Origin: Lachnospiraceae bacterium
GTDB lineage: Bacteria > Bacillota > Clostridia > Lachnospirales > Lachnospiraceae
Length of the DNA stretch: 33,716 nt
Direction: 5' to 3'
Assembly: GCA_017962825.1 (NCBI GenBank)
Contig: JAGCUO010000074.1
Span: 1-33,716 of the forward strand
The notes under the pieces are model-generated. The model was not told the DNA's origin. It saw only the letters and a program-made list of their open reading frames with translations, and ran no database searches. The first letter of the stretch is position 1. Each line of letters starts with the position of its first letter. Below, one piece after another: positions 9,128 through 23,672 of this stretch. A program made the position numbers and the translations under genes.

Positions 9128-9156
9128 ACAATATGACCATGTTTCCCCGAGGTCAA
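9128..9156 (-). promoter_or_regulatory. Promoter overlapping the histidine kinase stop codon
   Basis: TTGACC (9151-9156), a 17-base spacer and TATTGT (9128-9133) on the minus strand. The -35 contains the kinase's TGA stop. It would start transcription exactly at the base of the structured element 9035-9123. Confidence 0.5.
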
Positions 9157-11438
9157 GTGATATTTGGAACGATAAGACCGGGAGAGATATTCTTCATTAC
9201 CGCTTCCTCAAGCTCCAGAGGATCCACCGGCTTGGACAGATATCCGTTAAAGCCGGCTTTCACATACATCTCCATGCTTCCCGATACGGCATTGGCTGTA
9301 AGAGCTATCTCCGGAGTATTTCTGTTGGGATTGTTCTCATCTTCCCTGATCATATGCAGAGTCTCTATACCGTCGGGAGAAGGCATCATGTGATCCATGA
9401 ATATTACATCGTATTTATTCTTAAGCGTAAGCTCAAGCGCCTGTTCCCCGCCGTATGCCTGGTCTATCATGACCTTTGTATCTTTGAGGAGGGATACGAA
9501 TACCGCAACATTCATTTCATTGTCATCGACTATCAGTATGCGGGCTGAAGGAGCGGTAAAGGATGCCACGTACCTTTTTCTTCTGACCTTCTGCGTTGTC
9601 TTATTGAACTTCACGGAACCGATAAATGTCGCATCACTGATCCTTTGAGGAATCCTTACCGTAAAAACAGAACCTTCACCATACCTGCTTGATACCTTGA
9701 TGGTGCCGCCCATGCCTTCGCACAGCTTCTTGGTAATGGCAAGTCCGAGACCCGTTCCTTCGATATTTCGATTCTTTTTAAGATCAACTCTGGTAAAGCT
9801 GTCAAAAATATGATCCAGACTTTCCGGACGTATTCCCATTCCCGTATCGCTTACGGATATTTCCAGGTCAAAGCCCTCATCCGTATAATCTCCGCTTACG
9901 GAAATCCTGATGTAACCTTCATTGGTATATTTAACTGCATTGGTAACAAGGTTCAAAAGGATCTGTTCAATCTTCCCAGCATCACCGATAAGGCCTGAGG
10001 GCATACCGGGATCCACATCAAGTGCGATCCTGAGATTTTTCTCGGACGCTCTCTTTTCCAGCATGATACCTGCAGTGTCCGCAAGTTCCTGAATGGAGTA
10101 TTCTTTTTCGTCAAGTTCGAAATTTCCCGCTTCTATCTTGGAGAAATCAAGAACGTCGTTGATCAGATTCAGAAGAATGTGCCCCGCTTTTTCCACATCC
10201 CTGGAATATCCGAGTATGACCAGATCTTTGGCTTCCCTTGAGATCATCTCGTTCATTCCGAGGATCGTATTTATGGGAGTTCTTATCTCATGGGACATTG
10301 CAGACAGGAAATCGCTCTTGGCATTGGAAGCTTCCAGAGCTCTTTTTTCCGCGGCCGCCAGCTTTTCGTTTTTCTCCTCGATGGATGCGATATACTCGTT
10401 GTCCTTGGTTACATCATTGAATTCGATCAGATATCCGTATACGGTGTTTCCCAGAAACTCAAGTGCTCTTTTTCTGCTGAGATATTTTACTTCGCTCTTT
10501 AATACTCTTCCCGACAGCTTCAGAGTCTCTTTGTAAGAAGCCTTTGTATCCTCCTCGTTTCCGGCATTCATTCTGTCGAATCTTTTAAGAAGATCGGTTA
10601 TCTCGGGAAGATTTCCGGATAATTTCCTGTCTATCTGCTGGTATTTTAAATTTTCGAAATACTGACGTGCCAGGGCATTGGAACCCAGGTAGTTTTTATT
10701 TTTATCAAAAACAATATAGGCGTATTCTTCCCTCTTCTCCCATGCACTCATGATGTTATAAGACATGTCATACATACTGACCCTTTTATAGATCACAAGA
10801 ATGGTCAGTTCGGTAATAAGATATGCTATGGCATTCAACTCAAAATGAATGTGAAGAAGTCTGTCTATAAAATAGATTATGACATTGGTGAAAAGAAAGA
10901 CCGAATAAAGGATCGTGGTCTTGTAGGATACAATGTTCCTTTTTTTGATTGCAATAGCCGTAATATAGCCGACTGCGATGATGTATATCGCCAGCATCGC
11001 ATAATAGGAATAATGCAAAGGACCGTATTCTTTTACCAACACGGTGAATCCTCCCGCATCCTCTAAGGCTACGCTCTTGTAATAAAGAGCCGACCTTCCG
11101 ACGGTAAAAGTACAGCCGATCACGAACGTTGAAACGCTGACAAGAAAGATATTAACTCTGTGGGGGACATTTATGCCGGTGAGATTTGCACCGATACTGA
11201 ATACAAAAAAGGGCAGATAACATCCGCCCAAATAGATCAAAGAATTACCTATGACAGCCGCATCCAAGCTCTTCGAAACAGCAACAGTCAAGTAGCCTCC
11301 GTTTGCAACTACGACGGAACTCATCAGAAGAACTGTGTAGATGTCGGGTCTGATGCCTGATTCGATCAGCAGTACAATGTTCAGCACTGCAAATACTAAA
11401 GCGATCAGATAAATGCAGGTGACAATGTTCAAAGTCAT
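9153..11438 (-). CDS. Hybrid sensor histidine kinase with 7-TM sensor and receiver domain
   Basis: The 761-residue protein has seven hydrophobic segments (about residues 1-220), a PAS-like linker (about 235-345), a coiled coil, HisKA, HATPase and a C-terminal receiver. His383 (MSHEIRTP) is the phosphorylation site. ATP-binding boxes are the N-box at 493-500 (LLNLVTNA), DTGMGI (531-536) and GTGLGL (561-566). In the receiver the acidic pair Asp638-Asp639, phospho-acceptor Asp682 (FMDHMMP) and Lys736 (SKP) are intact. The protein is therefore competent for autophosphorylation and internal phosphorelay, but no separate HPt or output regulator is encoded nearby. Its ATG overlaps the stop of the EAL gene by four bases (ATGA), so the two are translationally coupled and probably one pathway. 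The input signal is unknown. Confidence 0.93.
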   Translation of the reverse strand: MTLNIVTCIYLIALVFAVLNIVLLIESGIRPDIYTVLLMSSVVVANGGYLTVAVSKSLDAAVIGNSLIYLGGCYLPFFVFSIGANLTGINVPHRVNIFLVSVSTFVIGCTFTVGRSALYYKSVALEDAGGFTVLVKEYGPLHYSYYAMLAIYIIAVGYITAIAIKKRNIVSYKTTILYSVFLFTNVIIYFIDRLLHIHFELNAIAYLITELTILVIYKRVSMYDMSYNIMSAWEKREEYAYIVFDKNKNYLGSNALARQYFENLKYQQIDRKLSGNLPEITDLLKRFDRMNAGNEEDTKASYKETLKLSGRVLKSEVKYLSRKRALEFLGNTVYGYLIEFNDVTKDNEYIASIEEKNEKLAAAEKRALEASNAKSDFLSAMSHEIRTPINTILGMNEMISREAKDLVILGYSRDVEKAGHILLNLINDVLDFSKIEAGNFELDEKEYSIQELADTAGIMLEKRASEKNLRIALDVDPGMPSGLIGDAGKIEQILLNLVTNAVKYTNEGYIRISVSGDYTDEGFDLEISVSDTGMGIRPESLDHIFDSFTRVDLKKNRNIEGTGLGLAITKKLCEGMGGTIKVSSRYGEGSVFTVRIPQRISDATFIGSVKFNKTTQKVRRKRYVASFTAPSARILIVDDNEMNVAVFVSLLKDTKVMIDQAYGGEQALELTLKNKYDVIFMDHMMPSPDGIETLHMIREDENNPNRNTPEIALTANAVSGSMEMYVKAGFNGYLSKPVDPLELEEAVMKNISPGLIVPNIT

Positions 11439-13390
11439 TCAACCTTCATGAAATCGAGGTATTCTCGTTCAGTCATTGGTTTCGCATAATAGAATCCCTG
11501 GATGAAATCACAACCCTGTGCCTCAAACCAGTCGGATATCTCCTTTGATTCTACACCCTCAACGACGATTCGTGCACCCATACTTTTAATAAGTTTGATG
11601 GCTTCTTCAAGGATGCGTCTCTTTTCGGGATCCGCAGCCTCATCCGTAAGGGATTTGTCGAGTTTAATGACCTTGTAAGGGAATGACATGACTCTGTGAA
11701 GATTGGAATATCCCGAGCCGTAATCATCCAGTGAAAATCTGACTCCCTCGGCGGAGATCGCATTCATGGTCTCAAGAACCCTCTCATATGCTCCGTCTGC
11801 GGCAGTCTCTGTTATCTCAAAATTGATCCAGTTGGGGTCGATATTGTATTCGGCCATGTACTTCTTGATCTTGACCGCCATATCAGCCTGCATGCACTGA
11901 ATGATGGACAGGTTGACCTCAATGTAGTCGACACCGAGTTCTTCGGGCGAATGCTGTGATAAGAACCTGCATACATCCTTTATTACGAAATCGCCGATAT
12001 GTACGATCCTTCCGGTCTTTTCCGCAGCGGGGATAAATACGGAAGGAGAAATGGAACCGAATTCTTCGGAATTGAGTCTTATAAGTGCTTCCGCACATTT
12101 ATACGTCTTATCCTTCAGCGAATAAATGGGCTGGTAATACATCTCAAATCTGTTGTGTCTGATGGCGTCCTCAATAATGGAATCGATGGAATTGAGGATC
12201 ACGAATTCTCTGTCAAAAGAGATCTCCGAATACTGAACCGGCTTCCAGGGCTCGATAAGATTCTGAATACGCTCGGAGAATTTCATAAGTTCTTCTTTTT
12301 CCGAAATATCATCGGGGATAAGAACGGAGCAGATACACATATCCAGCTGTACATCATAACCCGCACCCGAATAGCCTTCCGAATATCTGTTTACGAGCTT
12401 ATCTATCTGCTTCCTGATAAGTGCACGGTCAAATCTTCCCTGTATGATATTTGCATACAGTCCGCCTCTTAAGTAATAAAAATCGGATGTGGAAAGAATG
12501 CCCCTGTATCTTTCTTTTACCAGGACATCGGCAATGGATCTGAGTATCTTTCTGTAAACCCTGATATCGGTAAGGCTTCTTATCTCGGAGTCATTGGATA
12601 TCTTACAGAAAATGACTATTGCTCTTCTGCCGCTTAAGATAAGGTTCTCGATATCATTTTCAAAGGGAATGAATGAAGAAAGACCGGTCTCAAGATCAAT
12701 GGATTCATCGGGTCTGAACACGAAGAATGCCAGCATAAGCACGGAAAGGGATGCTCCGAACATTCCGGTCATCAGCTGGGGATAAACATCCTGAACAATG
12801 ATTGCGATCACATTGACGGGATAGACGAGAAGCATTGCAAGAAACTTCTCGACACTGAGTCTTTTCCTGATCACAAAGAGCTGGATAAGACTGAATACCA
12901 TGAAATAGAAACCGAAGTAGTCATAAACGGACATAAGATCTCCGCGAACGTATGAAATACCTTCGGCTGTGAGTGTGTAATTAAATATCCTCTGATTGAA
13001 AAAGTTGGAATAGACTAAGATCAGATAACCCAACAGCGGGAAGAAGTAAAAGAAGCCTATCCTGAAGTCGGATTTAATACGGCTCCACGTACCGCTCATG
13101 ATACCGTAAAGCCTTATGAGAAACGGCATCTGAAGTGCTCTCAGGAAACAGAAAATATATCCCATTACGAACCTGAACACAACAGAAGAACCGATGGCTG
13201 TATCCTCGTTGTAGGGAAAGGCTCTGAGTATATCAAAAATACAGCTCAGGATCATAAGAATCGCAAGCTGTATAAATGCTCTGTTCAAACCTCCGCGGTA
13301 CATCTTACGCAGAAGAAGCGATACCAGGACCGCAAGTAAAACGAAGATGGAACAAATGTCAAAATAATTTACCCTGTCAATGATCTGCAA
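11435..13390 (-). CDS. 7-TM cyclic-di-GMP phosphodiesterase (degenerate GGDEF, EAL)
   Basis: The start is TTG at 13390 with GGGGGAG 8 bases upstream; the first ATG would cut into the first membrane helix. Seven hydrophobic segments (about residues 8-225) are followed by a GGDEF-shaped region (232-375) lacking the GGDEF signature; YLRGGLY sits where it should be. A complete EAL domain (400-651) follows. Catalytic residues are present: EAL at 434-436, Asn493, Glu525, DDYG at 555-558, Lys576 and Glu611 (EGVES), then QGFYYAKP. It should hydrolyse cyclic di-GMP at the membrane, with the degenerate domain regulatory. It is coupled to the hybrid kinase, whose sensor also has seven TM segments. A promoter with TATAAT stands upstream. 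Confidence 0.92.
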   Translation of the reverse strand: MQIIDRVNYFDICSIFVLLAVLVSLLLRKMYRGGLNRAFIQLAILMILSCIFDILRAFPYNEDTAIGSSVVFRFVMGYIFCFLRALQMPFLIRLYGIMSGTWSRIKSDFRIGFFYFFPLLGYLILVYSNFFNQRIFNYTLTAEGISYVRGDLMSVYDYFGFYFMVFSLIQLFVIRKRLSVEKFLAMLLVYPVNVIAIIVQDVYPQLMTGMFGASLSVLMLAFFVFRPDESIDLETGLSSFIPFENDIENLILSGRRAIVIFCKISNDSEIRSLTDIRVYRKILRSIADVLVKERYRGILSTSDFYYLRGGLYANIIQGRFDRALIRKQIDKLVNRYSEGYSGAGYDVQLDMCICSVLIPDDISEKEELMKFSERIQNLIEPWKPVQYSEISFDREFVILNSIDSIIEDAIRHNRFEMYYQPIYSLKDKTYKCAEALIRLNSEEFGSISPSVFIPAAEKTGRIVHIGDFVIKDVCRFLSQHSPEELGVDYIEVNLSIIQCMQADMAVKIKKYMAEYNIDPNWINFEITETAADGAYERVLETMNAISAEGVRFSLDDYGSGYSNLHRVMSFPYKVIKLDKSLTDEAADPEKRRILEEAIKLIKSMGARIVVEGVESKEISDWFEAQGCDFIQGFYYAKPMTEREYLDFMKVE

Positions 13391-13423
13391 CTATAGGACT
13401 CCCCCATCTAACCCATTGTGCAT

Positions 13424-13452
13424 ATTATACCTTTTCAGAGTAACTTAAACAA
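13424..13452 (-). promoter_or_regulatory. Promoter of the EAL / histidine kinase pair
   Basis: TTGTTT (13447-13452), 17-base spacer, TATAAT (13424-13429) on the minus strand, 33 bp before the TTG start. Only a weak GCTT/AAGC hairpin with T6 lies between the rSAM stop and this promoter. Readthrough from the upstream three genes is therefore possible. Confidence 0.7.
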
Positions 13453-13466
13453 CTTAAAAAAGCTTC

Positions 13467-14579
13467 TCAAAAAAGCACATCTTTGAGGCAGATTAATGGT
13501 TTATTGGCATCGTAATCCCAACTGTGATGCGCCCCTCCGGCACACCATTTCTCATATTCACACTCTTTACAGTCTTTGTTCATTTCCGAAAGATGTTTTC
13601 TGAATATTTCGAATCTGTTCATCCATGAATCCGTAAAAGAATCCGTGTTCACATTGCCGTATATGACTTCATCCCTGGGCATGATATCGAGGCATGCGGT
13701 GATATCGCCGTTTGCCCTTACAGAGGCGGTAAATACACCGGCATTGCACAAAAACATCTTATCCCTTACATTGCCTTCAAGATCGAATCCCAGGAAATGC
13801 GAACAGCCGTATTCCACGGGAAATCCTTCTCTTCTTTTCTCCAGTATAAAAGAAAACAGTCTTCTCTGATCGTCGGGAGTAAGGAGCATATCCGGGTACT
13901 CGAGAGCTCGTCCGATAGGCTCTATTCCAATTACTCTCCAGGAATCAACATCGATCCCGTCCACCACATTAAAGAGTTCGTCCAGCTCCGTGATATTCTT
14001 ATGATTTATTACGGTTGTAATCTGGATGGCATGGAAAAAGTCCTCATCGATGAGGTTTTGAATGCCTCTCATGGCGAGTTTATATCCGCCCTTAAGTCCC
14101 CTCTGTCTGTCGTGGGTTTCTTCAAGACCGTCAATGCTGACGGATATGGTAGCCATACCGCATTCTTTTAAACGATGTGCGGCTTCTTTTGTAATAAAGG
14201 TGGCATTGGAGGTCATTCCCCACACAAAGCCCTTTTCATGGATGTAAGAAACGATATCAAAAAAATCCGGACGGAGCATGGGCTCCCCTCCGGTAATACA
14301 TATCATGATCCTTTTTTTGTCAAAATTCTCCGCTACCTCATCCAGGACTTCCTTTATCTTCTCAAAAAAAAGCCCCGTAGGAATTCCGGGCTCGCATCTT
14401 GATCCGCAGTGGAAACATTTTTCATTACATGAAAGTGTCAGTTCGAAAAAAAGATGCCTGAGGTCAGGCTTTTCGTAAAGTTTTTCCCTGACCTCAGACC
14501 TTTTATCAAGAATAGTCTTCTTATACTCCATAACTTCCGGAGCTTCTGCGGAATATTCTTTGAATTCTTCAAGATTCAT
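13467..14579 (-). CDS. Radical SAM/SPASM peptide maturase
   Basis: A 370-residue enzyme started at ATG 14579 (GAGG 7 bases upstream; a GTG just before is the alternative). The radical SAM cluster is Cys51-x3-Cys55-x2-Cys58 in TLSCNEKCFHCGSRC, followed by the SAM-binding GGEP (97-100). The C-terminal SPASM-like part has Cys278-x12-Gly-x4-Cys296, Cys337-x2-Cys340-x5-Cys346 (WCAGG) and Cys364, enough for auxiliary iron-sulphur clusters. Such enzymes modify residues of ribosomally made peptides. The N-terminal stretch LRHLFFELTLSC resembles TIGR04133-type maturases paired with lipoproteins in Bacteroidetes (from memory). No PqqD-like recognition domain is present. It begins 11 bp after the VYGPP lipoprotein gene, the obvious substrate. 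Confidence 0.9.
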   Translation of the reverse strand: MNLEEFKEYSAEAPEVMEYKKTILDKRSEVREKLYEKPDLRHLFFELTLSCNEKCFHCGSRCEPGIPTGLFFEKIKEVLDEVAENFDKKRIMICITGGEPMLRPDFFDIVSYIHEKGFVWGMTSNATFITKEAAHRLKECGMATISVSIDGLEETHDRQRGLKGGYKLAMRGIQNLIDEDFFHAIQITTVINHKNITELDELFNVVDGIDVDSWRVIGIEPIGRALEYPDMLLTPDDQRRLFSFILEKRREGFPVEYGCSHFLGFDLEGNVRDKMFLCNAGVFTASVRANGDITACLDIMPRDEVIYGNVNTDSFTDSWMNRFEIFRKHLSEMNKDCKECEYEKWCAGGAHHSWDYDANKPLICLKDVLF

Positions 14580-14590
14580 CACTTACCTCT

Positions 14591-15025
14591 TCAGGGCTCG
14601 GGTGGTCCGTAGACTACTACCATGGGTTCTTCAAGAAAATCCTCGGGATCTGCTTCATCTTCATCCCCGGATTTATCGGCATCATCGGTTTCATCATCAT
14701 CCGGTGATTCGATGGAATCGTCATAAGTAAAATCTTCGGGAGGCCCATAGACCGTCACAATGGGATCGGTGATCTCATCGGGAGGAGGTCCGTAGACAGG
14801 TTCCGTAGGAACATCAACATTAAAGTCTTCGGGAGGCCCGTAGACTTCAACACCGGGATCATCGTAATCTTCCTCGTTTATAACAGGAGGTCCGTAGACA
14901 TCAGGCTGAGGAATCTCCGGATTACTGTACAGACTTACGTTAGTGGGGCATCCGGTGAGTCCGATCATCGCTCCCGCAGCCATAACCGAAGAAGCAAATG
15001 TAAGTTTTTTCCTGGTTTTTTTCAT
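14591..15025 (-). CDS. VYGPP-repeat lipoprotein, predicted substrate of the radical SAM enzyme
   Basis: A 144-residue protein with a lysine-rich N-terminus, a short hydrophobic stretch and lipobox LTGC (Cys26), so it should be exported and lipid-anchored. The mature part is almost all Asp, Glu, Pro and Ser, with five copies of VYGPP starting at residues 43, 61, 77, 92 and 138. Two continue as EDF. The last copy is two residues from the C-terminus (VYGPPEP). There is no predicted fold; it looks like a disordered display chain. AGAGG lies 7 bases upstream of the ATG, inside the end of the previous gene, and the radical SAM gene follows at 11 bp. Modification at or near the Tyr or Pro of each motif is inferred. 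I know no family with this repeat. Confidence 0.85.
   Translation of the reverse strand: MKKTRKKLTFASSVMAAGAMIGLTGCPTNVSLYSNPEIPQPDVYGPPVINEEDYDDPGVEVYGPPEDFNVDVPTEPVYGPPPDEITDPIVTVYGPPEDFTYDDSIESPDDDETDDADKSGDEDEADPEDFLEEPMVVVYGPPEP
14600..14899 (-). repeat. Five VYGPP codon repeats
   Basis: The copies lie at 14885-14899, 14831-14845, 14783-14797, 14738-14752 and 14600-14614. Spacing is 18, 16, 15 and 46 codons. Codons vary at third positions (GGA or GGC, CCT or CCC, TAC or TAT) while the peptide stays fixed. That points to selection on the protein rather than recent DNA duplication. Confidence 0.9.
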
Positions 15026-15028
15026 AGG

Positions 15029-16705
15029 CTATCCTCTGGCACCGTAATCAGGGTTATTGAGAACGTTTTCAAATTCATCCTTCGTAAGGGGCTTATCGAA
15101 ATAGTAGCCCTGCGCCCTTAAGCATCCGTACTTTTTCAGTATTTCTATCTGATCCTTGGTTTCAACACCTTCAGCAATGGTACTCATACCGAGGTCTTCC
15201 GCCATTGAGATTATGTGCTTCATCATAATCATGTCTCGGTCGCTTATGGAGTCACTGCTGATAAAGCTTCTGTCGATCTTGATCTCCGAAAAAGGAATAT
15301 CCTTGATCATGCTCATGGAAGAATATCCCACACCGAAGTCATCCACCGAAACATCAAATCCCGCTTTTCTGAATCCTGCAACGCATTCCGCAAGTCTTAA
15401 GAGATCTGCTTCCGTAGTAGTCTCGGTAAGCTCAATGACGATCAGAGAACGCGGGATCTTATATTCATCGACGATGTTTATGACTTCGTGTACAAAGTTA
15501 GGATTGCCGAGATGTTTTCTCGAAAAGTTGGTGGAGACTCTGACCGGGGTGATACCCTTATCCATCCAGCCCGCAATATCCTTGCATACGGATTCCAGCA
15601 TGTAATAATCCAGAGAGCAGATCCTGTTACTCTTCTCCAGGATCTCAATAAACGATCCGGGAGTAAGTATCTTCTTTCCCCTGTTCCATCTGCAAAGAGC
15701 CTCGGCACCGATCAGAAGATTGTTCTCCAGATTAACCTTGGGCTGATAGTATGCTACAAACTCACCTTTGACGATCGCATCCTTAAATCTGGATTCGATC
15801 TTCTTGGTATTGTTCACCAGCTTAACCATGGACTCATCGTAGAACTGAACATTTGCATGATTTGTATTCTTGGCGATCAGCATGGAAGCCTGTGCATAGT
15901 CGATACATTCGGAGAAATTCTTTTCTTTTCCGCTGCAATGATATACACCGCAATATGCGCTCATCCTTATGGTTTCCCAGAAGGATGTATCACCCGTCAT
16001 ATCGGTACCTTTAAGAATCTTCAGAAGATGCTCCGTATTCTCATGCCTGCAGGCGATTACAAAATTATCACCACCCATTCTGCACAGGCACTCCGGCGAT
16101 TCCAGAAAATCCGTCAGCATCGCACCGAACTTTTTGATCATTACATCGGCTTCCTGTCTGCCGATCATTGAATTGATACCGGATGTATTTACAAGATTAA
16201 AGAATATGATGGAATAATCGGACAGCCTGTCCAGCTTTTGAACCATTGACAAAGTTCTTCTCAGATAAAAGCCGTTGTAAAAACCCAGCTCACGCTCATG
16301 GAATGTGGCATACTCGATGAATTCCTTCATCCTGATACGGCTCTTAAGTGTGGATATTACCAGTAGAAATTCACTGACCAGTTGTCTCTCTTCCTCATTC
16401 CACGAATAACCTGCTATGGGAAAAATGCAGACTCTTACAACATTTCCGCTGGGCACAACAGTGCGGTTCATGACATAATCATCGTCATTGTAATCAGGTC
16501 CTTCATACCTGGTATTTATGACGCTGGGTTCATCGCGCAGTTCGGCACCCATGTCGGGATATTCATAGAAAACGATCCTGCCAACCTTAAGTATCTCTAC
16601 AAGTTCGGCAGTTGCGACGTTGTCCTTATCAGATTCATAGAGAACTATCGCCGCTTCTTCACAGAAAAGATCATGTAATTTTACTTTAATCTTATCAATA
16701 TCCAT
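15029..16705 (-). CDS. Soluble GGDEF-like/EAL cyclic-di-GMP phosphodiesterase
   Basis: The 558-residue cytoplasmic protein is started at ATG 16705 (GGAAAA upstream); a GTG 30 bases earlier is possible but has no binding site. Residues 1-125 look GAF-like, with no membrane segment. A GGDEF domain follows whose signature reads GGDNF (211-215), the Glu changed to Asn, so cyclase activity is doubtful. The EAL domain is complete: EAL at 335-337 (GAEALCRW), ELTE, DDFGVGYSS, KIDRSF, EGVET and AQGYYFDKP. The protein probably lowers cyclic di-GMP. It is the first gene of the unit leading into the VYGPP lipoprotein (3 bp gap) and radical SAM gene. That ties cyclic-di-GMP turnover to the modified lipoprotein. 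Confidence 0.9.
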   Translation of the reverse strand: MDIDKIKVKLHDLFCEEAAIVLYESDKDNVATAELVEILKVGRIVFYEYPDMGAELRDEPSVINTRYEGPDYNDDDYVMNRTVVPSGNVVRVCIFPIAGYSWNEEERQLVSEFLLVISTLKSRIRMKEFIEYATFHERELGFYNGFYLRRTLSMVQKLDRLSDYSIIFFNLVNTSGINSMIGRQEADVMIKKFGAMLTDFLESPECLCRMGGDNFVIACRHENTEHLLKILKGTDMTGDTSFWETIRMSAYCGVYHCSGKEKNFSECIDYAQASMLIAKNTNHANVQFYDESMVKLVNNTKKIESRFKDAIVKGEFVAYYQPKVNLENNLLIGAEALCRWNRGKKILTPGSFIEILEKSNRICSLDYYMLESVCKDIAGWMDKGITPVRVSTNFSRKHLGNPNFVHEVINIVDEYKIPRSLIVIELTETTTEADLLRLAECVAGFRKAGFDVSVDDFGVGYSSMSMIKDIPFSEIKIDRSFISSDSISDRDMIMMKHIISMAEDLGMSTIAEGVETKDQIEILKKYGCLRAQGYYFDKPLTKDEFENVLNNPDYGARG

Positions 16706-16747
16706 GGTTTTTCCGACTTTCTCAGAAATCTGCACATACTTTATGAA

Positions 16748-16873: not shown

Positions 16874-19006
16874 TCAGGGGAGTTCGATCTCTATGGCTGA
16901 GACCTTCCTGCCGAGGAGTTTTTCGCTTCTTGCATCGGGCTGCTGTCCGCCAACATATACTACAGCCTTGCCCTTTGAAATAACGAACTTGCCGTCCTTA
17001 TCGAAGAGTCCGAATGCATCCTTGGGAAGCTTTATCGATAAGCTCTTCTTTTCACCGGCTTTAAGCTCGACCTTCTTAAACGCTTTCAGCTGATAGTTGG
17101 GAGCATTCTCGAAATCACAGATTTTAACATATACCTGAACGGTTTCTCTTCCGTCCACCTTACCGGTATTTTCAACATCAAGACTTACGGTGACCACGTC
17201 ATCTCCGAGTACGGTCTTATCAGCTGATACATTCGAATATTCGTAAGTGGTATATGACAGTCCGTATCCGAAAGGATAAAGAGCATCCACTGTCATATAT
17301 CTGTAGGTTCTGCCCTTCATGGAGTAATCGGTGAAATCGGGAAGTTCCTCTGTACTCTCATAGAAAGTAACAGGGAGCTTTCCTTCGAAGTTTCTGTCTC
17401 CGAATACGGTCTCAGCGATGGCTCTTCCACCCATTGCACCGGGATACCAGCACTGGATTATGGCATTTATCTTATCCGCGTTCTTAACGGTGATTGCAGA
17501 TCCCACAAGTTGGAGAAGAACTACAGGTTTACCGCTGGCAATGGCAACATCCAGAACCTCCTGCTGAAGTCCGGGAAGACTTAAGTCAACCTTATCGCCG
17601 CTGGCAAACTCATTACCCGCATCGCCCTCTTCTCCCTCGATTCCTGCATCAAGTCCGAGAGCAACAAAGATAATATCGCTGTCCGCGCATACACTCTTAA
17701 CTTCGGAAATTCTGTCATCTCCGGTTGAAAGTCCGCTGATCCTGTCTTTGACAAGATGGCAGCCTTCTGAATATCTGAAATCCACGTCCTCACCGAGATA
17801 ATCCTCAAGACCTTCAAGGACGGTAACATATCTGGATGCGGTACCTTCATAGTTACCGACAAGTGCACGTCTGTTATCCGCATTGGGTCCGATCACGCCG
17901 ACGGTCTTTATCTTCTTCTTATCGAGAGGAAGGATACCGTCATTCTTGAGAAGAACAAGGCTCTTTGCGGATGTTTCAAGGTTAAGCTTTCTGTTTGCCT
18001 TGTTATCAACCTGATCCATTCCGATATTATCGAAGGCGGTCTTCTCACCATCAAACATACCCAGCTTCATTCTGGTAGTGAAAAGATTTACAAGAGCTTC
18101 ATCAAGTCTTTCCTCTTTTACCTTACCCTGTTCAACTGCATCCTTAAGATACGTGAAAAGATTTCCGCAGTTGAGATCACATCCGTTGTTCATGGCAAGA
18201 CTTACGGACTCTACTTCATCGGAAGTTACCATATGTCCGGTATGGAAATCCTTTATAGCCCAGCAGTCGGAAACAACATGTCCCTTGAATCCGTACTCAT
18301 CTCTTAAAATATCCTTGAGAAGAGTCTTGGATCCGCAGCAGGGCTCGCCGTTGGTACGGTTATAAGCACCCATTACGGTCTCTACATTAGCTTCCTGCAC
18401 ACATGCCTTAAATGCGGGAAGATAAGTCTCACGCATATCCTGAATGGAAGCTACAGCGTTAAATCTGTGTCTCTCGGGCTCGGGTCCTGAATGAACCGCA
18501 AAATGCTTGGCACATGCCGCTGCCTTTAAGTGGTCCTCATCATGTCCCTGAAGTCCTTCTACATATCTGACACCGAGCCTTGAGGTAAGATATGGGTCCT
18601 CTCCGTATTTCTCCTGACCTCTTCCCCATCTGGGATCGCGGAATATATTTACATTGGGTGCCCAGAAGGTAAGTCCTTTATAGATATCGGTATCCGAATA
18701 TTTCTGCTGCATATTGAACTTGGCACGTCCTTCCGTAGAAACGACGTCACCCAGTTCTTCCATAAGGTCCTCATCAAATGTTGCTGCAAGTCCGATAGCC
18801 TGAGGAAATACCGTAGCCGTGCCGGCTCTTGCAACACCGTGAAGTGCCTCATTCCACCAGTCGTATGCCTTGATGCCAAGACGTTCTATTGCAGGCGCAT
18901 GATTCAAAGTTTGAGAAACCTTTTCCTCAAGAGTCATCTTGGAAACAAGTTCTTCGGCTCTTTTACGGAATTCGCTTATTTTAGCCTCATTTTTTACAAG
19001 TTCCAT
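16874..19006 (-). CDS. GH3 beta-xylosidase / beta-glucosidase
   Basis: A 710-residue cytoplasmic glycosidase without signal peptide. Order: GH3 TIM-barrel domain (about 15-310), alpha/beta sandwich (about 350-580) and a fibronectin-III-like domain (about 615-700). The opening YDWWNEALHGVA, the FRDPRWGRGQEKYGEDPYLT stretch and KHFAVHSGPEPERH are those of the xylosidase-like GH3 branch. Asp247 in VVSDCWA is the nucleophile, and a Glu near 457-460 is the likely acid/base. It should release xylose or glucose from the non-reducing ends of imported oligosaccharides. GGGAGA sits 6 bases before the ATG. It is transcribed divergently from the AraC regulator next to it, the likely controller. Substrate choice between xylose, glucose and arabinose cannot be settled from sequence. 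Confidence 0.92.
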   Translation of the reverse strand: MELVKNEAKISEFRKRAEELVSKMTLEEKVSQTLNHAPAIERLGIKAYDWWNEALHGVARAGTATVFPQAIGLAATFDEDLMEELGDVVSTEGRAKFNMQQKYSDTDIYKGLTFWAPNVNIFRDPRWGRGQEKYGEDPYLTSRLGVRYVEGLQGHDEDHLKAAACAKHFAVHSGPEPERHRFNAVASIQDMRETYLPAFKACVQEANVETVMGAYNRTNGEPCCGSKTLLKDILRDEYGFKGHVVSDCWAIKDFHTGHMVTSDEVESVSLAMNNGCDLNCGNLFTYLKDAVEQGKVKEERLDEALVNLFTTRMKLGMFDGEKTAFDNIGMDQVDNKANRKLNLETSAKSLVLLKNDGILPLDKKKIKTVGVIGPNADNRRALVGNYEGTASRYVTVLEGLEDYLGEDVDFRYSEGCHLVKDRISGLSTGDDRISEVKSVCADSDIIFVALGLDAGIEGEEGDAGNEFASGDKVDLSLPGLQQEVLDVAIASGKPVVLLQLVGSAITVKNADKINAIIQCWYPGAMGGRAIAETVFGDRNFEGKLPVTFYESTEELPDFTDYSMKGRTYRYMTVDALYPFGYGLSYTTYEYSNVSADKTVLGDDVVTVSLDVENTGKVDGRETVQVYVKICDFENAPNYQLKAFKKVELKAGEKKSLSIKLPKDAFGLFDKDGKFVISKGKAVVYVGGQQPDARSEKLLGRKVSAIEIELP

Positions 19007-19088
19007 ATAATTCTCCCTGTTTATTTTGTTTATGGTTAATATGCCCCAAACACCCTAAATAATTCTATATTATTATCTTTTTGGCCTT

Positions 19089-19159
19089 CCTATGCTATTT
19101 TGCTCTTATCATTTCAGAATTTGCTTTTAATTTTCCGCAAAAAGCAATAAAATCATAGG
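19089..19159. promoter_or_regulatory. Imperfect inverted repeat in the GH3 / araC divergent region
   Basis: CCTATGCTATTTTGCT (19089-19104) faces AGCAATAAAATCATAGG (19143-19159). The outer CCTATG and inner TGCT are exact, the middle is not. The repeat sits in the 189-bp divergent region 19007-19195 and could be paired regulator half-sites. No other structure is obvious there. Confidence 0.3.
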
Positions 19160-19195
19160 TAGAAAGCACCGTCAAATTTGCTATGAGGAATATTT

Positions 19196-20122
19196 ATGCT
19201 TCCCGTACTTGAACATGGTCGTGAGACAGTTAAATACACCGAAATTCAGGGAGTAAGACTCTACCACAATGACCAGGCAGAGGATTATCCTCTTCACTGG
19301 CATACCGCAACGGAGATAATCGCGCCCACCGAGAACGACTACACCATCGAGATCGGTACCGAGAAGTACACCATCAGTCCCGGTGATATCGCGGTCATCA
19401 TGAGTGGTACCCTGCACAGACTCTACGCTCCCAAAAACGGAAAGAGGATCATCATCCTCTTCGACTACAGCCTTATCGGAAATGTAACATCCCTTAACTC
19501 TCTTCTCCATTCCCTTGGCGAATGTGTCATCATACGTCGCAAAGAAAACGAAGAACTTTCCGACAGACTCATGTATTACATCAATCAGACCGACAACGAA
19601 TATGCGACCCAAAAGCCTTATGCCGGTGCTGCCATCTATTCACTTCTGATCCGATTCATGGTGGATGTTGGTAGAAGCTGCATGGAAGAAAGAGTTCCCC
19701 AGCTCGGCAAATCATCAGCCAAAAACAAAGAATACATCGGCAGGTTCATGGATGTGTGTAACTATATTTCCGAACACTGTACCGAAGATATCGATATGGA
19801 TGCTCTTGCGGAAATGGCCGGATTTTCAAGATTCCATTTTGCAAGACTGTTCAAAGAATTCGCACATGTATCCTGCTATGAATATCTTACCCAGAAGAGG
19901 ATACTTCTTGCGGAGATGTATTTAAACCAGCCTGATCTTTCCATACTCGATGTCGCTCTACAGTCGGGATTCAAATCCCTTTCCACATTCAACAGAGTAT
20001 TTAAATCATACAAGAACTGCACTCCTTCGGAATACAGGAAGATGAATCGTCGTTACACACCGCCTCCGATCTTCGAAGAAAAAGCAGAATCCCCCACACC
20101 CGAGGATGCAGGGGATAATTAG
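19196..20122 (+). CDS. AraC-family transcription regulator with cupin sensor domain
   Basis: A 308-residue regulator; ATG 19196 is preceded by GAGG at 7 bases. Residues about 20-100 form a cupin-type sugar-sensing domain (DYPLHWHTATEII, then GDIAVIMSGTLHRLYAP). Residues about 183-282 hold the two helix-turn-helix units of AraC proteins: DMDALAEMAGFSRFHFARLF, then SILDVALQSGFKSLSTFNRVF, ending CTPSEYRKM. It binds DNA in the cytoplasm and usually activates neighbouring catabolic genes on sugar binding. It lies between the GH3 gene (divergent) and the GH2 gene (convergent), so both are candidate targets. The proline- and glutamate-rich tail is dispensable-looking. Confidence 0.92.
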   Translation: MLPVLEHGRETVKYTEIQGVRLYHNDQAEDYPLHWHTATEIIAPTENDYTIEIGTEKYTISPGDIAVIMSGTLHRLYAPKNGKRIIILFDYSLIGNVTSLNSLLHSLGECVIIRRKENEELSDRLMYYINQTDNEYATQKPYAGAAIYSLLIRFMVDVGRSCMEERVPQLGKSSAKNKEYIGRFMDVCNYISEHCTEDIDMDALAEMAGFSRFHFARLFKEFAHVSCYEYLTQKRILLAEMYLNQPDLSILDVALQSGFKSLSTFNRVFKSYKNCTPSEYRKMNRRYTPPPIFEEKAESPTPEDAGDN

Positions 20123-20124
20123 TA

Positions 20125-23100
20125 TCATTCGAATCGGAATGATCTCATATCAAAACAGCTTCCGGGCATGAAGACGAAAGAAACGTTCTTCATGCCTGTT
20201 TCTTTGTCTATATCAAAAGTTCTCTCGGTATAATCATCACTCTGAGTAAACTCGATGACATTCCTTGACTCGTGCCCGCTGTCATCAAAGAACCTTACGT
20301 GTATAGTGTTGGTTCCTTTGGGGGCTCTTCCGCATATCGTAACTTTTGAAGTGCCGCCTTCTCCGAAATCCATTCCCGAGAAGTTAATTGTCACGTTATT
20401 TCCGATACCTTCGACGCAGGGAGCATTTATCTTATAATCATCACCGTATATCTCATCCGCATCGGATGCATTCAGGTTCATAAACGCTCTCTCATACTTC
20501 GTAAAAGAAAAACCTTTCACATGAACCTTGTCATAGAATTCAAATGCAAGTGTATGTACACCCTTGAGTACGGTACCGATCTTCCAGGTATCTTCCTGAT
20601 ATACATTCCAGATCATCGGCTTTTGATACAACAGATCGGCGATAAGTTTTCCGCCCTTCGAAGGTATACCGTCATAGATCTTGAAAGGATGCTCATCCGA
20701 ATCAAGTGCAAATATCGGTATGGTTATCTCATCGCTTCCAGCCTGTCCGAAATCAATTTTATCGAATGCAATAAGAGACCTTTCACCCTTGGATGATGAG
20801 AATCCCATCTCATTACCCGTTCCCACTCCGCCTTCAAAATAGGAATAAGAACTTCCGTAGATAAAGCCATAGGGATCGGCAAACTTTGTTCCCACTCCTT
20901 CTACCGAAAATTCCAATTCGGATATAACCCTGACTGAGGACGAGCCTGACTTTGACATTGCTCTGAGTCTGAACGAGCCGTCGCCGAGAGCTTTTATGAG
21001 AGCCTCGCTTCCGCAGCCGTTAACTTCCGCAATATTAAGAGGAACACCCTTATCGGAAACTATGGCATATTCGATATCTTTATCCGTGGCATTTTCAGGA
21101 TATATTTTTACCACAGCCTTCACTTCCTGTTTATCCGGCGTGAGCTTTCTTTCATCGCAGATTATCTCAAGTTTTCTGACAGGAATGTCACTATCGGTAC
21201 CAAGATTTATTTTCCTGTCACCGCAGGATTCGTAAACATATTCAGCACCTTTATCAAAGGGTGAATCCTTCGTATCTACTCCCTGCATACACTCAATCTC
21301 GGCCTCACAGTCATTAAGCCCCTTTGCGCTTACCTTGATGTGAACTTTGCCGGGGTTTTCACCGGCTGCGATAACAGCGAGAAGCTTTCCGTTAAACATT
21401 CTTCTGCTCATGGCCTTGTAGGAATCGGTATCGGTACTGTCACCGTTATCAAGACCAACCAGTCTTCCGGCTCCCGTCACCTCTACGAAAACTCTGTCAC
21501 ATGCATTTTTTACGGGATTTCCGTCTTTATCAAGCGCGGTAATCTCCGCAAAAACAAGATCTTCGCTTCCTGCAGTCAGTGATCCGTATGTGATATCCAT
21601 CTTAAGGGAAACGGAATCTCCGAAGGATCTTTCCTCACATTCCGCAACAATCTTACCGTTATCATATGCAACCGCCTTAAGAACACCTCTTTCGTAAGGG
21701 GCTTTATAATTGGTGATTATATGATCCCCGCTTCCGGGTTTATGAGTAAGGTTTTGTTTTCCGAGACTTTTACCGTTTAAGAACAGCTCTACTTCATCTG
21801 CATTAGAGCAAACCCTTATGTCTATGATCTGTCCTGGATTAAAATCCCAATATGGGAATATATATACAAAGGGATCATCCTTCAGATCGGTCCAGGCCGA
21901 TTTGAACACATGATAATAGTCCTTGGCAAAGCCTGCGGTATCCAACATTCCGAAGTATGAATTCTTAGTATGATAAGGAGTAGGTTCTCCGATGTAGTCA
22001 AAACCTGTCCAGAGAAACTGTCCCGCAGAAAATTCCATATCCCTGTCATCACAGATACAGCTTTCTATGCTGTTTGCACCCCAGCTTGTATTGCAATTTC
22101 CAAGTGATGAACACTGCTCATCAACATCCGTAAGTTTGGTAACATCAAGAGGGAATTTGTACACGCCTCTGCTCTGTACAAGTGATGCGGTTTCACTTCC
22201 GTAAATCGTCCAGTCGGGATACTTCTCATGATGTTTTTTATAGATTCTCTCGGAATAATTGTATCCTACGAGTTTAAGTACATCTCCGCACTTCTGCGCG
22301 CCTTCCCAGGGCAGATAATTTGATGCAAAAGTACATACCGCATTTTTACATGGATCATATCTGTATACCACATCCATCAGATGTCTGACGGTATCGGGCG
22401 CAGATTCGTCGGCATGTGCATCATAGATCTCATTACCTATGCTCCACATTATGACGCTGGGGTGATCTCTGTCCTGTTTAACCCAGCTCTCCATATCCCT
22501 CTCATGCCAGTCCGCAAAGAAACGGGCATAATCATATTCGGTCTTGGGTCTGTACCACATATCGAAATTCTCTGTCATCACGAGAATTCCCATCTCATCA
22601 CACAGGTCCAGCACTTCGGGTGCAGGCATGTTGTGAGAAGTTCTGAGGGCATTTACTCCCATCTTCTTGAGAAGTACGAATTTCCTCCTCATGGCGGATG
22701 TATTGAAAGCCGCGCCGAGTGAGCCGAGGTCATGATGTTCGCATACCCCGTTTAATTTCACACGCTTTCCGTTCAGCAAAAATCCTTTATCAGGATCAAA
22801 TAAAATATCACGGATTCCAAAACGGACCACAGATTCATCCGTATCTTCTCCGTTTTTTCCGGGAGCGGTCATTACTGTTTTCAGCAAGTAGAGATATGCA
22901 TCATTAATATCCCAGAGATGAGGATTAACTATCTCATAATCCGTATCCGAGATCTTAATAAGTTCGGTCTCTTCTCCGTTCTGATCCGTAACCGTATATG
23001 TGATCACCGCATCGGATGCATTACTACCCAGAACTTCGGTCTCGATATGAAGTATTCTTTTACCGTTTTCCAAACGGTTTGATACATACACTCCGTCCCT

Positions 23101-23541
23101 TGCGATATATGTATCTCCTGTCTGTCTGATATATACATTTCTGTAAATACCTGCACCCGAATACCACCTGGTGTTGGGAGAACGGTATGTTGCACTCACT
23201 GCGATCCTGTTAGTGCCTTCATGAACATACTCCGTTATTTCACAGCCAAATGCAGAGTATCCGTATTTCCATTCGCATACCTTCACACCGTTTACATATA
23301 CTGCGCTGTCCATATAGACGGCATCAAATTCCAGAAAATACCTGCCTTTAACTTCATCCAAAGCAAGATCCCTTATGTACCAGCCTGTACCGTCACGGTA
23401 GAGATCCGTAGAATCATATATAAGCCAGTCATGAGGAAGCTGAACAGGTTTAAATTCCGCATCTCTCTCCATGGCTTCTTCCAAAGGTGTTCCTACTTTT
23501 GTTTCAAGAAATCTCCAGCCTTTATTAAACAGATATCTCAT
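20125..23541 (-). CDS. Large GH2 glycoside hydrolase with C-terminal Ig-like and CBM-like domains
   Basis: The 1138-residue protein is started at ATG 23541, behind GAGGGGA; an earlier in-frame start has no binding site. Order: sugar-binding jelly roll (about 1-170), Ig-like domain (170-250), TIM barrel (250-545), Ig-like modules (about 570-760 and 800-885), then two beta-sandwich regions (about 890-1025 and 1030-1138) resembling CBM6-type modules. Glu371 (SIGNE) is the acid/base and Glu450 (YGSETAS) the nucleophile. GH2 covers beta-galactosidase, beta-glucuronidase and beta-mannosidase; the barrel with its DUF4982-like follower favours beta-galactosidase or a related exo-enzyme. No signal peptide is present, unusual for an enzyme with binding modules. 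Its stop codon is 2 bp from the convergent araC stop. Confidence 0.9.
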   Translation of the reverse strand: MRYLFNKGWRFLETKVGTPLEEAMERDAEFKPVQLPHDWLIYDSTDLYRDGTGWYIRDLALDEVKGRYFLEFDAVYMDSAVYVNGVKVCEWKYGYSAFGCEITEYVHEGTNRIAVSATYRSPNTRWYSGAGIYRNVYIRQTGDTYIARDGVYVSNRLENGKRILHIETEVLGSNASDAVITYTVTDQNGEETELIKISDTDYEIVNPHLWDINDAYLYLLKTVMTAPGKNGEDTDESVVRFGIRDILFDPDKGFLLNGKRVKLNGVCEHHDLGSLGAAFNTSAMRRKFVLLKKMGVNALRTSHNMPAPEVLDLCDEMGILVMTENFDMWYRPKTEYDYARFFADWHERDMESWVKQDRDHPSVIMWSIGNEIYDAHADESAPDTVRHLMDVVYRYDPCKNAVCTFASNYLPWEGAQKCGDVLKLVGYNYSERIYKKHHEKYPDWTIYGSETASLVQSRGVYKFPLDVTKLTDVDEQCSSLGNCNTSWGANSIESCICDDRDMEFSAGQFLWTGFDYIGEPTPYHTKNSYFGMLDTAGFAKDYYHVFKSAWTDLKDDPFVYIFPYWDFNPGQIIDIRVCSNADEVELFLNGKSLGKQNLTHKPGSGDHIITNYKAPYERGVLKAVAYDNGKIVAECEERSFGDSVSLKMDITYGSLTAGSEDLVFAEITALDKDGNPVKNACDRVFVEVTGAGRLVGLDNGDSTDTDSYKAMSRRMFNGKLLAVIAAGENPGKVHIKVSAKGLNDCEAEIECMQGVDTKDSPFDKGAEYVYESCGDRKINLGTDSDIPVRKLEIICDERKLTPDKQEVKAVVKIYPENATDKDIEYAIVSDKGVPLNIAEVNGCGSEALIKALGDGSFRLRAMSKSGSSSVRVISELEFSVEGVGTKFADPYGFIYGSSYSYFEGGVGTGNEMGFSSSKGERSLIAFDKIDFGQAGSDEITIPIFALDSDEHPFKIYDGIPSKGGKLIADLLYQKPMIWNVYQEDTWKIGTVLKGVHTLAFEFYDKVHVKGFSFTKYERAFMNLNASDADEIYGDDYKINAPCVEGIGNNVTINFSGMDFGEGGTSKVTICGRAPKGTNTIHVRFFDDSGHESRNVIEFTQSDDYTERTFDIDKETGMKNVSFVFMPGSCFDMRSFRFE
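20162..20198 (+). terminator. araC terminator embedded in the GH2 coding sequence
   Basis: GGCATGAAGA (20165-20174) pairs with TCTTCATGCC (20187-20196) and is followed by TGTTTCTTT on the plus strand. It lies 43 bp past the araC stop, inside the last codons of the convergent GH2 gene. A smaller ATCATTC/GAATGAT repeat (20124-20143) straddles the GH2 stop. Confidence 0.65.
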
Positions 23542-23629
23542 ATTTTCCCCTCTTATTTTTTCCAAGGTCGGTTCAAAGTACACTTATATATAATCACAAC
23601 CGGCTGATTAAATATAGTTAAAAAATCGA

Positions 23630-23661
23630 CAGATATACCGCAATTCAATGCGATACATCTG
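23630..23661 (-). terminator. Terminator after the uxuA-uxuB-esterase operon
   Basis: CAGATATACCGCA pairs with TGCGATACATCTG with two mismatches. On the minus strand it is followed by TCGATTTTTTAAC. It separates the esterase gene from the GH2 gene. Confidence 0.8.
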
Positions 23662-23672
23662 CCGCCATACAT

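Follow-up and report, generated by a model that had tools for sequence, protein, structure and literature searches.

A VYGPP-repeat lipoprotein and its radical SAM/SPASM enzyme in Lachnospiraceae: a probable splicease-like two-gene system

The locus and its two core genes

The window analysed here is the whole stretch of 33,716 nucleotides (contig JAGCUO010000074.1) from a Lachnospiraceae bacterium genome (GCA_017962825.1) that is 81 percent complete. The genes that concern us are the following:

15029..16735, minus strand: GGDEF/EAL gene, 3 bp upstream of the lipoprotein gene and in the same apparent operon
14591..15025, minus strand: gene for the putative substrate, a 144-aa lipoprotein with the lipobox LTGC and an acidic, Pro-rich chain that holds five VYGPP and a probably decayed sixth site
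13467..14582, minus strand: gene for a 371-aa radical SAM/SPASM enzyme with a GTG start and the signature CxxxCxxC-GS-xC
11435..13390, minus strand: downstream EAL gene, 76 bp past the enzyme gene and probably outside the core system
9153..11438, minus strand: hybrid histidine kinase gene, after the downstream EAL gene

An earlier note on this DNA had described a 144-residue lipobox protein with five VYGPP motifs beside an enzyme with CxxxCxxC and SPASM-type cysteines, and this description was confirmed, with both genes on the minus strand. Its gap of 11 bp between the two genes holds for an ATG start at 14579 (370 aa), which adjoins the GTG start (371 aa, gap of 8 bp); the two starts are equally possible.

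The signal peptide of the lipoprotein ends in LTGC, and the protein had no match in NCBIfam at E values up to 1 and none over the cut-off in Pfam. The five VYGPP repeats are not due to chance, as two or more VYGPP occurred in none of 100,000 shuffles of the mature chain. Their codons show synonymous differences between repeats and between orthologues, indicating that the constraint acts on the protein. At a sixth aligned position, close to the mature N terminus, the window lipoprotein reads SLYSNP where the related locus L005 has DVYGPP. This site is kept as VYGPP in L005, L006 and L007 and is missing in L008, and in the window it is probably a decayed sixth site.

The enzyme carries C52xxxC56xxC59 (the GTG codon being residue 1) together with SPASM cysteines, and its Pfam matches over the cut-off are Radical_SAM (PF04055, 1.1e-20) and SPASM (PF13186, 1.4e-6), which places it among the radical SAM/SPASM modifiers of peptides or proteins. 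Across 22 window-type rows, C279 and C297 are present in all, C338, C341 and C347 in 95 percent and C365 in 77 percent. An AlphaFold2 model built from 23 sequences (pLDDT 79.6, pTM 0.83) has the fold of SPASM enzymes, and the solved folds nearest to it are SkfB, CteB, BlsE, SuiB and anSME.

The GGDEF/EAL and EAL genes were found at these places only in loci of the window genus, where synteny of the EAL-lipoprotein-enzyme-EAL block holds in every locus of sufficient length; many of the other loci span only about 1.5 kb on each side. The whole arrangement (9153-16735), with an EAL gene on each side of the pair and then a hybrid histidine kinase, was found only in loci of this genus. This context suggests a genus-specific link with c-di-GMP, and a general link was ruled out, the EAL neighbours being limited to window-genus loci (again with flanks of about 1.5 kb in many loci). 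A carbohydrate-degradation cluster adjoins the system at 16874-25664; it encodes GH3, an AraC-type regulator, a GH2 that carries CBM6, and an esterase of the SASA type. As for a phage origin, viral contigs gave no close relative in a search that detects close relatives only.

Pairing of the enzyme with YG proteins

Relatives of the enzyme are patchy. In a sample of 398 genomes from the whole phylum, only 2 had one, and the genome of the window is one of these two. They were detected in 19 of 397 genomes of the window family (E up to 1e-60), in 15 of 31 genomes of the window genus and in 52 of 98 genomes from the family to which a Ruminococcaceae relative belongs (E up to 1e-55); genome contigs yielded 25 loci. 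Lachnospiraceae bacterium P6A3 (L005), whose partner has six sites, and the Ruminococcaceae bacteria YAD3003 and AB4001 are presumably isolates, as their records carry no MAG label. After removal of identical genes, the non-redundant set comprised 90 enzymes, and 84 of these had an adjacent gene with YG(x)P, with one to seven motifs per partner, in a count from which 23 spurious frames, listed by hand, were excluded (four of these lay in duplicate loci). The pair can therefore be called dedicated, as the earlier note had supposed, and the number of motifs varies while the motif itself stays fixed beside the same enzyme. The pairing extends, without the EAL neighbours, across Lachnospiraceae and the Saccharofermentans/Ruminococcaceae group.

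In these loci the motif clusters near the enzyme gene. In open frames of at least 60 aa on the same strand, the 110,484 aa lying no more than 800 bp from one of the 90 enzyme genes contained VYGPP 270 times, and the 68,781 aa farther away did not contain it once; six permuted pentamers gave no occurrence near or far. When the genus was searched with the lipoprotein, it was found in 13 of the 31 genomes, all of them among the 15 that are enzyme-positive and none among the 16 that are enzyme-negative; lipoprotein homologues without the enzyme, which had been named as the case that would speak against the pair, were thus absent from these 31 genomes (13 of 13 lipoprotein genomes being enzyme-positive). 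The hypergeometric value is 5e-7 with relatedness ignored, and because the sampled genomes are related, values of this kind overstate the evidence. A zinc-ribbon partner with YG behaves in the same way: it was found in 5 of 397 family genomes, all five among the 19 enzyme-positive ones (apparently the same genome draw; 1.5e-7, relatedness ignored), and in two of the five its gene lies on a different contig from the enzyme gene. Four enzyme-positive genomes of the genus hold extra, unlinked lipoproteins, in which two or three YGPP sites precede a C-terminal domain with DxDGDGEDEY. Three of them measure about 280-290 aa (L084 838-1713, L087 1498-2376, L092 892-1725), a fourth is interrupted by a stop (L090 847-1695), and the two that were scanned had no Pfam match over the cut-off. 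Since partners encoded away from the enzyme gene accompany the enzyme in such genomes, a single enzyme probably acts on several proteins.

The six enzymes without an adjacent partner comprise one at a contig edge, two whose partner lies elsewhere and three broken enzymes. In L029 the enzyme sits at the contig edge, where a fragment reads DVYGPPPTDEE (L184); a zinc-ribbon partner (L180) is encoded at another place in the genome. Intact enzymes are found in L037, whose genome (G120) encodes, away from the enzyme gene, a DUF805 membrane protein with three sites as well as a zinc ribbon, and in L072, whose genome (G811) encodes a two-site VYGPP lipoprotein elsewhere. Among the broken ones, the enzyme frame of L044 is split in two and the neighbouring lipoprotein carries LYAPPP, with YA for YG; in L147 (genome G876) the C-terminal SPASM part is out of frame, and the two VYGPP pattern matches in the genome look like chance. 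The window-type enzyme of L046/L098 (genome G041) lacks CxxxCxxC and has no adjacent YG partner. The VYGPP pattern had no match in G041. In G248 and G092, where the partners carry IYGP, it found nothing either, so that the blank in G041 says little about loss of the substrate. Two further enzyme matches, L047 and L105, contain an internal TAA.

Within the partners, conservation is centred on Tyr and Gly. Among pentamers with at most one mismatch from VYGPP in 89 partner proteins, 268 were exact, and deviations fell on V (11), the first P (2) and the second P (17), with none on Y or G. The choice of partners by YG(x)P raises the apparent conservation of Y and G at a single site in each protein, while further repeats are free to vary; one of the 89 proteins, the second frame of L135, was reduced to three residues by start picking. 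The residue before YG varies among V, D, L, I, M, Y, A, E and T, and the residues after it among P, A, S, V, C and D. The scaffolds themselves are unrelated, and lipoprotein linkers, DUF805 tails, zinc ribbons and small YYGCP lipoproteins have only the YG(x)P core in common; many window-type partners carry CVYGPP. DUF805 membrane proteins carry their YG(x)P sites in a C-terminal tail (L038 2607-3329, L179 1380-2138). Zinc-ribbon-like proteins with a YGP-like site occur in L187 (1348-1671), L180 (388-738), L192, L039, L041 and L045 (a Pfam scan covered those of L045, L187 and L180), and in their layout CVYGPPP or a variant lies between two zinc-binding halves. The partner of L027 has no lipobox; the lipobox pattern matched 43 of the 89 partners but missed plain cases such as LNAC and VEGC. 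A lipoprotein was ruled out as the defining feature, because DUF805, zinc-ribbon and lipobox-less partners carry the motif too. The earlier proposal of a modified-lipoprotein system thus stands in that the lipoprotein is a dedicated partner, but the conserved target is YG, and it is found in other kinds of protein as well. We also observed two small lipoproteins in L047/L100, each with YYGCPNS followed by a basic tail, one on each side of a divergent enzyme gene; the enzyme match there has an internal TAA and an open frame of 526 aa.

Relatives of the enzyme and known systems

The best NCBIfam match of the enzyme is TIGR04133, with 262.9 bits against a cut-off of 425 over positions 4-344 of 350, followed by TIGR04545 (148.7), TIGR03962 (139.1), TIGR04053 (131.1) and TIGR04103 (129.8, against a cut-off of 725). 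In none of the 20 genomes searched was the TIGR04133 cut-off exceeded. We take TIGR04103 to be the NCBIfam counterpart of IPR026482, the entry that appears below for PlpX.

An unrooted tree of 50 enzymes was built from 22 window rows, 3 TIGR04133, 7 TIGR04103-like, 2 TIGR03913 and 16 others, the last including MftC, NirJ, TIGR04053, TIGR04347 and AhbD-like enzymes (five added, one over the AhbD cut-off). Left out were L023, L002, L003, L004, L151, one row of L154 and L149, and seven further rows were thinned. The 34 rows of the first four groups were separated from the 16 other radical SAM enzymes by a branch with support 100/99, which indicates, as far as an unrooted tree can, common descent with TIGR04103 to the exclusion of the other sampled enzymes. 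The window clade has support 98/91. Its sister relation with TIGR04133 is not firm, because the support was 92/82 in the 50-enzyme tree and 66/19 in a smaller one. The 34 rows also have a common cluster signature: Gly-Ser follows the third cluster Cys (CxxxCxxC-GS) in 34 of 34, and Gly is found there in 0 of the 16 others. C63 and C260 covary in the 34 rows, both being Cys in 29 and neither in 5. The Cys of CX3C is present in the TIGR04103 (1.0) and TIGR03913 rows and absent from the window (0) and TIGR04133 rows; in the outgroup, as aligned, its frequency is 0.12.

Among the closest known systems are the PlpXY spliceases. As described in PMC10533398 and PMC11002830, PlpX excises tyramine at XYG, with X free; these sources and PMC10373908 add that several sites per precursor are possible and that the leader is not required. 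The splice tags of PlpA contain LYGLP (PMC10533398), and PlpX is assigned to IPR026482 in PMC11002830. According to PMC10533398, the survey by Scott et al. 2022 covers 27 spliceases that were characterised and 939 that were predicted, a list that possibly already contains the window family. Spliceases resemble the window system in being radical SAM/SPASM enzymes with an XYG target that often precedes P (LYGLP) and with the possibility of several sites per substrate, and the PlpXY/TIGR04103 enzymes lie on the same side of the 100/99 branch and have the same CxxxCxxC-GS signature. They differ in that the window enzyme lacks the CX3C Cys and reaches only 129.8 bits where TIGR04103 requires 725, and in that neither a Nif11/NHLP leader nor a PlpY-type RRE neighbour was found at the window locus, where the operon gaps, of 3, 8 and 76 bp, are too short to hold a PlpY-like gene (about 70 codons). 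Unlike PlpX systems, window-type enzymes are paired with a lipoprotein, or elsewhere with a zinc-ribbon or DUF805 protein; the sites number up to seven, and partners also occur in trans.

In a TIGR04103 locus of Nostoc, whose enzyme scores 853 bits (cut-off 725), a Nif11 precursor ends in ALYGLPPELF, in which the LYGLP of the PlpA splice tags recurs, and the enzyme is followed by a 71-aa protein. Among 291 genomes, 8 had clostridial TIGR04103-like enzymes, all of which stayed below the cut-off. Three of the eight loci showed a convincing YG partner, comprising two precursors with three xYGI each and one zinc-ribbon neighbour with MVYGGPDYF; none was seen in the other five.

The TIGR04133/TIGR04134 pairs of Bacteroidota and Treponema are the closest system by family match. 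The three loci sampled come from Parabacteroides and Treponema (both over the cut-off) and from Phocaeicola. Here, too, a lipoprotein gene adjoins the enzyme gene (it follows the enzyme gene in Phocaeicola L056 and precedes it in the other two loci), and the enzymes resemble those of the window in lacking the CX3C Cys and having C63/C260. Early in their mature chains the three lipoproteins have CEYGSP, SCYGMP and CEYGTP; in Treponema this motif coincides with the lipobox Cys, and in the other two it comes about ten residues later. The earlier suggestion of a relation with these families holds in so far as TIGR04133 is the best match and the partners have YGxP. Filing the pair as TIGR04133/TIGR04134 was ruled out, since the enzyme stays below the cut-off and the lipoprotein has no TIGR04134 match. 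TIGR04134-type lipoproteins have one site before a longer domain, whereas the window lipoprotein has many VYGPP in a linker. Our literature search found no paper naming TIGR04133/TIGR04134, VYGPP or TIGR04103.

The TIGR03913 enzymes with GDL/DUF1843 partners lie on the same side of the 100/99 branch, and their partners have LYAA, MYAA, PYGA, PYGP or MYMA near the N terminus. These systems differ from that of the window in having small DUF1843 partners, in allowing YA or YM, and in enzymes with the CX3C Cys and without C63/C260. Their chemistry is possibly related, with Gly dispensable. DUF1843/GDL peptides with YA, YG or YM near the N terminus lie in L060 (3174-3887) and L148 (1787-2242), and their TIGR03913 enzymes group next to TIGR04103.

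Possible chemistry and alternatives

The earlier note named no specific chemistry. From the motif and the phylogeny, we consider it likely that the pair forms a two-gene splicease-like system that installs ketoamide units at each VYG. The combination of a strict YG, a free X, repeated sites, the same clade and the same cluster signature makes splicing the best explanation, and the YG target together with the phylogeny points to tyramine excision of the splicease type. We infer that a modification takes place at VYGPP and that it is this excision: the enzyme would probably cut most of each Tyr from the chain, rejoin the ends and leave reactive groups. In such a mechanism, the enzyme would recognise V-Y-G in an unfolded chain of low complexity, probably in the cytosol ahead of Sec export. 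Radical chemistry would then remove a tyramine equivalent (about 135 Da) per Tyr, with the remaining carbonyl joined to the preceding Val, to give up to five alpha-keto-beta-amino (ketoamide) units, each followed by Gly-Pro-Pro. The exported lipoprotein would be anchored via its lipidated Cys and display an electrophilic array. The use of this array in the reversible capture of serine or cysteine proteases or of other nucleophiles is a tentative idea that we do not favour strongly; splicing products are described as protease inhibitors in the literature, and a role in protease capture does not directly fit the zinc-ribbon partners.

Several findings weaken the splicease reading. These are the score of 129.8 against 725 bits, the lack of a Nif11/NHLP leader and of room for a PlpY-like gene, the higher scores of the window enzyme for TIGR04545, TIGR03962 and TIGR04053 than for TIGR04103, and the convincing YG partner in only three of the eight clostridial TIGR04103-like loci. 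Moreover, the splicease named in the literature consulted is PlpX, and the chemistry may have changed across the clade; the YA of the L044 partner and the YA, YG or YM of the GDL/DUF1843 partners imply that G is not absolute across the wider clade.

Such findings leave some weight, in our view clearly a minor share, for a dedicated YG modification other than tyramine excision, such as epimerisation of Tyr, oxidation or cleavage at Tyr or Gly, or a Tyr-centred ring in YGPP. The reactions of SPASM enzymes are diverse, the nearest folds include sactipeptide and ranthipeptide maturases as well as BlsE, SuiB and anSME, and the window branch is distinct from TIGR04103. The absence of the CX3C Cys from the window enzymes (0 versus 1.0) means that cluster ligation and chemistry may differ from those of TIGR04103. 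However, outside YG(x)P the partner scaffolds are unrelated and show no second fixed residue, a finding that speaks against side-chain crosslinks; the residues that flank YG vary as XYG chemistry predicts, and splicing is the only YG-dependent reaction found in the literature consulted.

That the pair is strictly a TIGR04133/TIGR04134 system, with whatever single-site function the Bacteroidota pairs have, appears improbable. TIGR04133 is by far the best NCBIfam match (262.9 bits over nearly the full length), the sister support reached 92/82, and CEYGSP, CEYGTP and SCYGMP resemble the CVYGPP of many window-type partners, but the resemblance is looser than it looks because in two of the three TIGR04133 loci the Cys of CEYG stands about ten residues past the lipobox Cys. 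The score below 425, the missing TIGR04134 match and the 66/19 of the smaller tree speak against this assignment, which in any case is not an alternative chemistry. Finally, it is hardly credible that no modification occurs, the two genes standing together by coincidence or through common regulation and VYGPP serving as a repeat for structure or binding. A Pro-rich lipoprotein of low complexity can simply be a spacer at the surface, and the EAL-flanked block is syntenic within the genus, but the pairing holds in Lachnospiraceae and the Saccharofermentans/Ruminococcaceae group without those neighbours, unrelated scaffolds have the motif alone in common, and unlinked partners co-occur with the enzyme.

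Returning to splicing as the preferred reading, its wider form is slightly more likely than not: clostridial enzymes would make multi-ketoamide proteins (lipoproteins with up to seven VYG, and DUF805 and zinc-ribbon proteins in trans), and the TIGR04133/TIGR04134 pairs would be single-site versions. If this is true, rumen and gut Clostridia apply Tyr backbone splicing repeatedly to proteins at the surface and elsewhere, beyond small RiPP precursors, and a direct test becomes possible of what the TIGR04133/TIGR04134 pairs, which have names but no explanation, are for. Leader-free substrates with multiple sites would also suit protein labelling at short tags.

Some further small genes were seen near TIGR04103-like enzymes. 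In L158 (404-706), a small zinc-ribbon protein with a YGP-like site accompanies such an enzyme, and L155 and L157 contain, on the downstream side, two related short frames (VQYGLEDLFCL... and TLYGPGALFCL...) that may be real YG peptides. On a plasmid of Agathobacter rectalis (L059, from 3743), a short peptide ending in NLFGPVMYGTGVRM precedes a radical SAM gene of the TIGR04103-like clade, an MFS transporter comes next, and this locus looks like a small spliceotide cluster.
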